This document shows, piece by piece, positions 20,029-23,869 of a stretch of DNA of 64,000 nucleotides. The number at the start of each line of letters is the position of its first letter. Position 1 is the first letter of the stretch. Position numbers and translations under genes: made by a program. This stretch comes from Clostridiales bacterium (GTDB lineage Bacteria > Bacillota > Desulfotomaculia > Desulfotomaculales > VENG01). The stretch is taken from positions 62,001 through 126,000 of the forward strand of contig JADQBQ010000032.1 of the NCBI GenBank assembly GCA_016278505.1, given 5' to 3'. Under the pieces are notes generated by a model that was given only the letters and a program-made list of their open reading frames with translations, was not told where the DNA came from and made no database searches.

Positions 20029-21624
20029 TTAGAGCAGCACCGCTATTTCATCCCTGTCCAGAGTACGCCGTATGTGAAACACCTTTTCCTTTAATTCGCG
20101 GTCCTCTCCCGCAGCACGCTCCATTTGACGCAGCAGGTCTATCGCCCGCCTGAGTAAGGAAAAGACATCCCCTTCATGTAAGTTACACCGTCCCATAAGC
20201 TGCTCAAAGGTGGCACCGTTATACCACGCTTCAGCCAGAGGGCCGGGCACCGGTGACCACGCACGCAGATGTTCTGGAACACCCATCTCTTCCAGGTCAT
20301 TTAAAAGCACCCCTACTTCGTCCATTTCATATTCTCCCGGCAGCACCACTTCATCCCGTCCGGGATAATAATCTACCCCGGCCAGGATAGCAGCAACTTC
20401 CGCCGGTGATGCTTCGTGGATGATGCCGGAAAAAACCAGTTCGGTAACTAGTAATTCCTCTACATGCACATAGAGGGCAAAAGCACCCCGGGCCAATAGG
20501 TTACGCCCGTCAACATAGCCCATTGACCTTAATAGCTCTACCATTTTGTCAAATTCCTTGGGATAATCGGTGGTCATACGATTCAACATGCTCCGGCGCC
20601 GCATTAAATGGGATCTTTGCTCCTTAAGGCCTCCCATCTCCTCCTGGGCGTCAGTGCACGCGTGATGCATACAGTTCTTGGTTTTTTCCGCCAGCATTGA
20701 TTTTATCTGCTCTATCCTGCCCGGGTACCGGTCTGTTTTCCTGCGCTTCCTTTTACGCCGGAGCTTGTTCAGTTCTTTATTCAATTTACGGCGAAACATA
20801 GGACACGGCGGAGTGTCCATTTGATCACAGAAGCAACCTTTTAATTCTTCCATGCGTTCATCCATGGAAGCAATATCCTTATCCAGCCGCGCTGTTTCCA
20901 AATTGTTTTGGTAGACCGCCAGGTTTTGGGACAGAAACTTTTGAATCTCGGCATCGGTTTTCCAACACAACAAACTAAGCACAGTATTGGGAGAGATGGT
21001 AAGTCTCCCTCGTACAGGTTCCACTTGTTCCTCATCAAAAAAGCCTGTCTGTTCAGGAAACCTTTCATCAATACGTATATAGACCCGGCCCACTTTATCA
21101 AACCCCCGCCGGCCTGCCCTGCCCGCCATTTGATAGAATTCACGGTTTAATATTGTTCGATGGGCCTCCCCGTCCCATTTACGGCAGGATTCAAAAACAG
21201 TACTGGCCGCTGGAAAATTAATTCCTACGGCAAACGTTTCAGTACAAAATAGAACAAAAATGAGTCTGGTCTCATAAAGATTCTCTACTATTTCTTTTAA
21301 GGCAGGGGAAAGGCCGGCATGATGATAAGCTATTCCCTGGAGCAGTAAGCGGCGTAAATTATTACGTCGCCCGCCAAACATGTTGGCATTTTCCTGCTCT
21401 GCCTGTTGAATAGCTTTTTCCACCTGCTGTTTTTCGTCGGGTAACAGGAAGTCCCACTCCCTGCCCAAATCTTCGGCCAGCCCTTCTGTCTTCCCCCGGC
21501 TGAATACAAAGTAAAGGGCAGGCAAATGTTCTTGTATGGCATCTACTATCTCAACACAAGATGACGTGTTTCTCAAAAAGCGTCTCTCCTCACATATTGT
21601 ATCTTTCTTTATACACTTCCTCAT
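20029..21624 (-). CDS. Ski2-like helicase, C-terminal half (out of frame with N-terminal half)
   Basis: Contains the second RecA domain and the tail of a superfamily 2 helicase: YHHAGLSPALKE, ETFAVGINFPA (motif V) and YQMAGRAGRRG (motif VI). A basic coiled region with several cysteines follows, then a DSHCT-like C-terminal domain (GIIHEASPAEVAAILAGVDYYPGRDE). It cannot work as a helicase without the first RecA domain, which is encoded by the preceding ORF in another frame, overlapping by 35 nt. Real homology appears to begin near LRNTSSCVEIVDAIQ; a GAGGAGAG site before a TTG (about 21572) could start a separate chain. Either a frameshifted gene or a true two-part helicase. Confidence 0.75.
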   Translation of the reverse strand: MRKCIKKDTICEERRFLRNTSSCVEIVDAIQEHLPALYFVFSRGKTEGLAEDLGREWDFLLPDEKQQVEKAIQQAEQENANMFGGRRNNLRRLLLQGIAYHHAGLSPALKEIVENLYETRLIFVLFCTETFAVGINFPAASTVFESCRKWDGEAHRTILNREFYQMAGRAGRRGFDKVGRVYIRIDERFPEQTGFFDEEQVEPVRGRLTISPNTVLSLLCWKTDAEIQKFLSQNLAVYQNNLETARLDKDIASMDERMEELKGCFCDQMDTPPCPMFRRKLNKELNKLRRKRKRRKTDRYPGRIEQIKSMLAEKTKNCMHHACTDAQEEMGGLKEQRSHLMRRRSMLNRMTTDYPKEFDKMVELLRSMGYVDGRNLLARGAFALYVHVEELLVTELVFSGIIHEASPAEVAAILAGVDYYPGRDEVVLPGEYEMDEVGVLLNDLEEMGVPEHLRAWSPVPGPLAEAWYNGATFEQLMGRCNLHEGDVFSLLRRAIDLLRQMERAAGEDRELKEKVFHIRRTLDRDEIAVLL

Positions 21625-23869
21625 CTTCGTAGGATTCAGGGTCGATTTCCTCCCGGGCTTCCCGCTCGTTCAAGACTTCTCCGCCCGAAGTAACCCATTT
21701 AGTAACCAGAGGCACAGCCCTTTCCCTCTCTTCTACAACAGATACCGGATATTGCCTAACATCTGACATCCAGGCGGCCAATTGATGAATATTGGGCACG
21801 GTGGCTGAAAGGCCCAGTATCTTAATGTGCGGCGGTGCAAAAATAATACTTTCCTCCCAGGCTGTTCCCCGGTGTGGGTCATCTAAGTAATGCACTTCAT
21901 CAAAAATCACAAAGGAAATATTGGACATCCATTCAGGGTTGGAAAAACACCAGTTACGGAAAATCTCCGTGGTCATTACCAACAGCGAGGCCCTTTCATT
22001 AATTGAAACATCACCGGTTATCAGCCCTACCCGCTCCCGGCCGTACAACTTGATAAAATCCCTGAATTTTTGATTGGATAAAGCTTTTATAGGAGACGTG
22101 TAGATGACCTCACGTTCCTCTGCCAATACTTTTTCCACCACTTTTTCCGCAATCAGCGTTTTACCGGTGCCGGTGGGAGCAGCAACCAACACAGAAAGGC
22201 CCTCTTCCAGCGCTTGGATGGCTGTTGTCTGGAAAGTGTCCAGGGTGATGGGAGCATCCGGGCGCTTCGGAATTTCTTCCTTATCCCGGTCCGGCCTTCT
22301 TTTCCCGCCTTTTAGCTTGCGTGCGCGGGCTGCCTCCCATTTTTCTTTTAATTGCGATACCACCCCAAGCAGATCCTCCACGTCACCTCGGCGAAATGCC
22401 TTGCCTGACCTTTTTGCCCCGCCGTGCCTTTGTACAGGAGCAAGGTGACCTTCCCGCACCAATTTATGAATGTTATCCTTAGGAATGCCCAAAATGCGTG
22501 CGGCATCCAGTACACCTATTTCTTCCGTTCGCCTGATAGCCCTATCCAGGCCGCCCCCCGGGCGGATCATTTCTAAAGGCCCCGACCAAATACGCAAGGC
22601 CCCTTCCAGAACAATTCCAGGTAAGTAACCCGACTGGTGGAGACTTACAACCTGATTAGGTCTAATAGAAAACTTCCGCGCTACTTCCCCGGGTTTGAGC
22701 GAGTTTTCCAGTAGGTAGACCACAGGAACTTTTTGCTTGCCACCGGAACTAAACTCCAGGCCGGTTAAGCTTTTCATTTCCTCCGCCATCTGCCGCGGAG
22801 GGAATTTAAGTGGAGAGCACCAAAAGGTTTTTCTTTCCAATTCAAGCCACGTACATCCTTCTTCTACCGCTTTTTGTACCGCGGCTTTTTTCTCCATGCC
22901 GCTAAAGCCGGTAAAGGTAAAAAAGGCATTATTATGCATTAAATTAACAAGCTTTTGTTGCACTTTAGCCAGTATTTCCCTGCGCTCTAACTCTTTTTGA
23001 CCCGCAGGATGCTCCTCCACCGTAACGCGGCCGTCCGGCAATATAATAAACGGCTGTACCTCTTTGCCTTTGCGGATGGATGAAACTAACTTTTTATGAT
23101 CCCTGAACATTTTAACAAAAGCTTTTTGCCCCAGAGGTTCACGCCGCCCAATATATAGCGCAATGTCATCCAGTGCAGCAGAGCTATCCGGTAGAGCATA
23201 ATCCCCTCCGGTTAAAATTACTAAATTGCGGGCAACTTCCGGAGACAGGGGTTCCCCCAGTGCTTGTTCCAGTGCTTCTGCCGAAACCGGCCCTCCGCCT
23301 TCCATCAACTTATTAATCATCTCTTTCTGACGGCGCACCTTTCCGGCATTGAGGCGAGCTTCGCGCTGCCTGCGCTTTAACTCGGCCCTTCCTTCTTCTA
23401 CAGACCGCAGTGTATATTTCCCGTCCGGCAAAACAATTACACCCGGTACGGATGCCGGTGTAATACCGTACAAAGGAACAAGCTCCGCCAACTCCTCTTC
23501 CCGGCGCGGAAGCCCATCGGACAATAGCTTTTCAATATTGCTTCTAACTTCATTTACTAGGCGAGACTTACATGACGCCACCTTCAAGGCCACGAATTGA
23601 CCGTCCGGTGGTTGCGTCTCTCCCGTTGTACTGCCGGGCTTCATGACTATTACTTCATCTCCCGCCGGCAGGTCTTTGTTTTTCACTATATCCAGTGATA
23701 TTTCACCCTTTGCCCACATGGACTGCAGGGCTCCGGTTAAAAGATCAAAGGATTCACCCATTTGCTGACATACTGCGTAGAGAGTTAACGTTCGGTTTTC
23801 CAATAAACTATATAGTTTCTGTTTTACCTTTTCAGTCTTAGGGCTGGCCAAGAATAACAACGCTCCCAA
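21590..23869 (-). CDS. Ski2-like helicase, N-terminal half with winged-helix and MerR-like HTH segments
   Basis: The last 200 of 759 residues form the first RecA domain: Walker A APTGTGKT (564-571), motif II DEVH (657-660) and motif III LSAT. Before it lie about 550 residues unlike ordinary Ski2 helicases. They hold several helical winged-helix-like blocks, and at about 451-500 an HTH resembling MerR/excisionase proteins (VLDAARILGIPKDNIHKLVREGHL). The frame ends in TGA soon after motif III, and the second RecA domain continues in the +1 frame. The start (TTG 23869 or TTG 23851) is unsure. RNA processing or DNA repair roles are both possible. Confidence 0.75.
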   Translation of the reverse strand: MGALLFLASPKTEKVKQKLYSLLENRTLTLYAVCQQMGESFDLLTGALQSMWAKGEISLDIVKNKDLPAGDEVIVMKPGSTTGETQPPDGQFVALKVASCKSRLVNEVRSNIEKLLSDGLPRREEELAELVPLYGITPASVPGVIVLPDGKYTLRSVEEGRAELKRRQREARLNAGKVRRQKEMINKLMEGGGPVSAEALEQALGEPLSPEVARNLVILTGGDYALPDSSAALDDIALYIGRREPLGQKAFVKMFRDHKKLVSSIRKGKEVQPFIILPDGRVTVEEHPAGQKELERREILAKVQQKLVNLMHNNAFFTFTGFSGMEKKAAVQKAVEEGCTWLELERKTFWCSPLKFPPRQMAEEMKSLTGLEFSSGGKQKVPVVYLLENSLKPGEVARKFSIRPNQVVSLHQSGYLPGIVLEGALRIWSGPLEMIRPGGGLDRAIRRTEEIGVLDAARILGIPKDNIHKLVREGHLAPVQRHGGAKRSGKAFRRGDVEDLLGVVSQLKEKWEAARARKLKGGKRRPDRDKEEIPKRPDAPITLDTFQTTAIQALEEGLSVLVAAPTGTGKTLIAEKVVEKVLAEEREVIYTSPIKALSNQKFRDFIKLYGRERVGLITGDVSINERASLLVMTTEIFRNWCFSNPEWMSNISFVIFDEVHYLDDPHRGTAWEESIIFAPPHIKILGLSATVPNIHQLAAWMSDVRQYPVSVVEERERAVPLVTKWVTSGGEVLNEREAREEIDPESYEDEEVYKERYNM

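Follow-up and report, generated by a model that had tools for sequence, protein, structure and literature searches.

The window (the whole 64,000-nucleotide stretch of DNA analyzed here, from a draft genome of 56 contigs) carries a large helicase that is divided between two reading frames, which raises the question of whether this is one interrupted gene or two genes that encode one motor. SF1 and SF2 motors close two RecA domains on ATP, and these domains normally lie on one chain. Here, ORF reading and Pfam assign them to an N-half gene of 759 amino acids that begins at a TTG (positions 21590 to 23869; all window features given here are on the minus strand) and a C-half gene (20029 to 21624) of 531 amino acids when counted from the ATG at 21624. 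The N half stops at a TGA (21590 to 21592). The C half lies in the +1 frame relative to the N half and overlaps it by 35 nt, its open frame reaching back to 80 nt upstream of the end of the N-half stop. The best-supported C-half start in the window is the TTG at 21574 to 21576, which has an AGGAG 9 nt upstream, lies 13 nt past the TGA, and gives a C half of 515 amino acids. ORFs, motifs, and Pfam matches confirm what an earlier note had read from the sequence: a large helicase split between its RecA domains by a +1 frame change, a 35-nt overlap with motifs V and VI in the downstream ORF, a TTG start behind TGA-GGAGAG, and halves broken by no other stops. The N-half ORF does end at the TGA at 21590, as that note had it, but not right after motif III, whose SAT ends 69 residues earlier.

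The N half consists of an N-terminal extension of ∼540 amino acids (22234 to 23869) and then RecA1 (Pfam DEAD, residues 546 to 695, E value of 2.9e−25), with motif I/Walker A (APTGTGKT, 22157 to 22180), motif Ia, motif II (DEVH, 21890 to 21901), and motif III (SAT, 21800 to 21808). The C half consists of RecA2 (Pfam Helicase_C, E value of 1.2e−9), with the motif IV region (LPALYFVFSRGKT, 21487 to 21525), motif V (TETFAVGINFPA, 21208 to 21243), and motif VI with its arginine fingers (QMAGRAGRRG, 21103 to 21132), then a clustered-cysteine insert that may be a zinc site (20656 to 20835), and finally a DSHCT domain (20050 to 20469; Pfam E value of 5.9e−18, 65.7 bits against a cut-off of 22.7). The Pfam domain matches of both halves are not due to chance. 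Within the extension, an HTH_17-like segment (22376 to 22507) scored 26.4 bits, just below the Pfam cut-off of 27, and a weak AlphaFold model (pLDDT of 59) contained repeated small helix-hairpin units.

The best solved-structure matches of both halves were Ski2 and Mtr4. Against Ski2 (4a4z), the N half aligned over residues 35 to 223 and the C half over residues 326 to 572, which places the cut in the stretch joining RecA1 to RecA2. An AlphaFold model of the core as a joined chain, built from 11 sequences, was poor (mean pLDDT of 61, pTM of 0.40). No NCBIfam model reached its cut-off for the halves, and PADLOC, for which no cut-offs were given, produced only matches to parts of many helicase profiles. 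The DSHCT domain found by Pfam is that of the Ski2/Mtr4 branch, and the window contains the full set of motifs of a Ski2-like SF2 helicase, I to III and IV to VI, divided between two chains. Because the RecA domains lie on separate ORFs, both in the window and in most relatives described below, we have filed the pair as a two-gene variant and not as an ordinary Ski2-like SF2 member.

The earlier note had proposed looking for the same split in close relatives, and the split was found through most of the class. The C half was searched against 113 genomes of the window's order, which is here the whole class, and matched in 89 of them at an E value of 1e−3 or better; one of these matches (G075, 3.2e−4) is weak and probably represents another helicase. 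The N half matched in 90 of the 113 at 1e−20. We read the window's own locus and 86 others, leaving out G101 and the weak G075; one locus (L098, in G012) is truncated where its contig stops, which leaves 86 loci with both halves readable. RecA1 and RecA2 are split in 78 of these and joined in one chain in 8. The split form is present in Desulfocucumis palustris and Pelotomaculum terephthalicicum and in eight genomes assembled as one contig (G023, G035, G054, G056, G058, G059, G063, and G096). One candidate single chain of 1,290 amino acids, in G016, contained an in-frame TAG and gave a 517-amino-acid match and was counted as split. The halves adjoin wherever either occurs, with exceptions only at contig ends (G070, G086, and G012). 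This class-wide presence argues that the break is ancient and inherited rather than the result of damage, as judged from the genome sequences.

The C half is absent from 24 of the 113 genomes, including 16 of the 80 that are at least 90% complete, which shows that members of the class can do without it. Families f2 and f8, with eight listed genomes each, lack both halves. DSHCT was found in 87 of the 113 genomes, as a single match in 86, indicating that there is no intact second copy, and in two pieces in G053 (family f9). The locus of this last genome, L094, has a decayed look, with several stops in both halves, and the genome is 72% complete. L094 was dropped from further analysis together with L095, which contains a gap of unknown bases, and the counts of split loci below refer to the remaining 76, which are undamaged.

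Both halves retain their parts of the motor. Motifs I, II, and III are present in all 76 split N halves and motifs IV and V in all 76 C halves, with a strict motif VI pattern in 72; L096 and L097 lack motifs Ia and Ic. The view in the earlier note that neither half would be an active helicase by itself is in keeping with this distribution of motifs. Among 21 chosen pairs of relatives, 18 had a finite dS (one of them a fused pair), and their dN/dS ranged from 0.03 to 0.24 for RecA1 and from 0.02 to 0.15 for the C half. Both halves are under purifying selection. A loose four-Cys pattern was found in 74 of the 76 split C halves versus 2 of 20 single chains from outside the class, and the insert is possibly a class-specific zinc site.

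On this basis, we consider it very likely that the locus encodes a two-gene, Ski2/Mtr4-like superfamily 2 helicase whose ATP site lies between two separately translated proteins. The first gene encodes RecA1, with motifs I to III for binding of the ATP phosphate and Mg and, in the window, the long N-terminal extension; the second encodes RecA2, with motifs IV to VI and the arginine fingers, together with DSHCT. Each gene would be started independently, the second from a site close to the stop of the first or immediately beyond it. The two chains would then bind each other so that the ATP site and the nucleic-acid groove form at their interface, Walker A and B being supplied by one chain and the arginine fingers by the other. 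By analogy with Ski2 and Mtr4, the associated chains may unwind nucleic acid and act as one 3′-5′ motor.

The N-terminal extension does not accompany the pair throughout. Families f1, f4, f9, and f17 have extensions several hundred residues long, f6 has shorter ones, and most other families have none. A bare RecA1 of 249 to 325 codons makes up the whole N half in 34 of the 76 split loci, so that the summed length of RecA1 and the C half is close to that of the single chains found outside the class. Scanning ∼0.4 to 3.1 kb of upstream sequence in the bare-RecA1 loci for the extension as a separate gene yielded similar ORFs only in L074 and in the decayed L094, which does not support this idea. 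Across 15 stretches (14 loci and part of the window, some of them overlapping), no neighbor beyond the halves themselves was common to many families. Two upstream genes, which may be of the AmmeMemoRadiSam type, were common to only the window, L125 (f1), and L122 (f4).

A more speculative version of the two-subunit motor is that it is switched by assembly, with a RecA1 chain that would dock reversibly on the RecA2-DSHCT chain and an activity that would depend on pairing. The docking chain would then bear differing N-terminal extensions, or none, according to family. We regard such a switch as doubtful. It is also improbable that RecA1 and RecA2-DSHCT function separately, each with a different partner, and that the pair is only a relic of an operon. 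The many bare RecA1 ORFs would suit such independence, but complementary motifs are retained in both halves, the halves adjoin everywhere except at the three contig ends, and two lineages appear to have fused them again.

This last point rests on comparison with single-chain relatives. In a sample of 398 genomes of the phylum, some of them from the window's class, 92 matched at 1e−20. Each of the 20 relatives that were read outside the class consists of one chain of at least 641 codons, some of these being cut by contig ends. A tree of 104 rows required three changes between the split and the one-chain state, as did a careful tree of 52 rows, on which the grouping of the split rows as one clade was rejected (p-AU of 6.2e−78). 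The simplest history would be that a single-chain ancestor split once, at the base of the class or close to it, and that the halves later re-fused twice, in L078 (f13) and in a seven-member clade of f17; support for precisely where L078 belongs is modest (74/41, 52-row tree). Outside the class, a single case was seen (G224:C69:3801-5392) in which the helicase part and the DSHCT part lie in two frames, and G405 gave a two-frame match with the break elsewhere in the C half, as in G224.

The junction between the halves varies in frame, stop codon, and spacing. The C half lies in frame 0, +1, or +2 relative to the N half in 15, 34, and 27 of the 76 split loci, respectively, and the N half stops at TGA in 39, TAA in 22, and TAG in 15. 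All three frames occur within each of families f4, f5, f7, f10, f16, and f17 (3/4/8 for 0/+1/+2 in f4 and 3/6/7 in f17), and 9 of the 15 in-frame loci have at least two stops between the halves. The best C-half start lies anywhere between 44 nt within the N half and 244 nt past its end; it overlaps the stop in 19 loci, lies at 0 to 30 nt in 40 (so that 59 of 76 have it no farther than 30 nt past the stop), at 31 to 100 nt in 14, and at more than 100 nt in 3. In L018 (G019), the halves are separated by a 155-nt gap that holds one copy of a palindromic repeat. This MITE-like repeat is ∼68 nt long and occurs in 12 copies in that genome, with 87 to 100% identity.

A Shine-Dalgarno match of at least 5 nt accompanies a C-half start near the junction in 54 of the 76 loci, compared to a mean of 10.7 and a maximum of 20 of 76 in control windows inside the same genes (200 draws); the other 22 loci lack a 5-nt match. 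Most f9 loci have the signal (AGGAGGTG) within the N half. A distance of ∼20 nt is reported to nearly abolish translational coupling (PMC10666635). Set against the junction distances observed here, this indicates that termination-reinitiation coupling is not general among the split loci; in the window's pair, it is possible. The varied frames, stops, and spacing, together with the repeat in G019, do not fit a shared slippery site and fit two genes. Of the options listed in the earlier note, the one that finds support is a two-subunit helicase whose second gene has a start of its own.

The same variation bears on a programmed +1 frameshift at the ATG-TGA, which would yield a full-length helicase and which the overlapping +1 frame of the window's C half might suggest. 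With frames of 15/34/27 and three stop codons, there is neither a conserved frame relation nor a conserved shift site. A sister genus (L013, in G001) has a +2 relation with a TAA, f4 alone contains all three frames, and elsewhere the junction holds more than 100 nt, up to four in-frame stops (L047), or the G019 repeat. Because frame, stop codon, and spacing vary among relatives, a programmed shift is excluded as a shared mechanism, and we think it very unlikely that one operates here. A single-chain gene that only seems broken through a sequencing or assembly indel would be in keeping with a draft genome of many contigs, but the split in 78 of 86 loci, one-contig genomes included, and the several loci with gaps or multiple stops between the halves exclude it for the family and make it extremely unlikely in the window. 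Equally slight is the chance of a pseudogene in decay, of which G053 gives a picture: dN/dS well below 1 in both halves of the tested pairs, long open frames retained through the whole class, and the prevalence of the split exclude recent inactivation for the family.

The two-gene helicase is closest to the Ski2 and Mtr4 (Dob1) RNA helicases, which likewise combine RecA1, RecA2, and DSHCT. Unlike the split pair, these are one chain and lack its Cys-containing insert and the long N-terminal extension of some of its families. The single-chain DSHCT helicases of the same phylum are homologous from RecA1 to DSHCT (∼31 to 41% identity in alignments that cover most of the C half) and are a single ORF in 20 of 20 cases examined, whereas the split pair is two. 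The nearest cases of other divided helicases, Cas3 and DISARM, separate different parts. The split of Cas3 separates the nuclease from the helicase and not RecA1 from RecA2. Both one-chain and split forms (Cas3′ and Cas3″) are known from CRISPR type I systems (PMC5965380). In DISARM, helicase parts lie on the adjacent genes drmA and drmB, whose products form a complex (PMC12458937); what is separate there is an accessory OB-CON-DUF1998 module, whereas the split pair is cut inside the motor. The available part of the main text of the GeneTack frame-transition survey (PMC3711429) mentions no helicase, Desulfotomaculum, or Pelotomaculum. In the open-licence PMC literature, to which the search was confined to the exclusion of subscription papers, we found no report of a split between RecA1 and RecA2, and so we could not find a description there of this form of a known helicase family.

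Annotation based on reading frames may mislabel such pairs as broken genes. If the motor is switched by assembly, this would be a mode of control that is not available to one-chain SF2 helicases. The split pairs offer natural two-part helicases, and a natural split that is class-wide, deeply conserved, and apparently twice undone would provide a ready test of whether the covalent linkage of the RecA domains matters.
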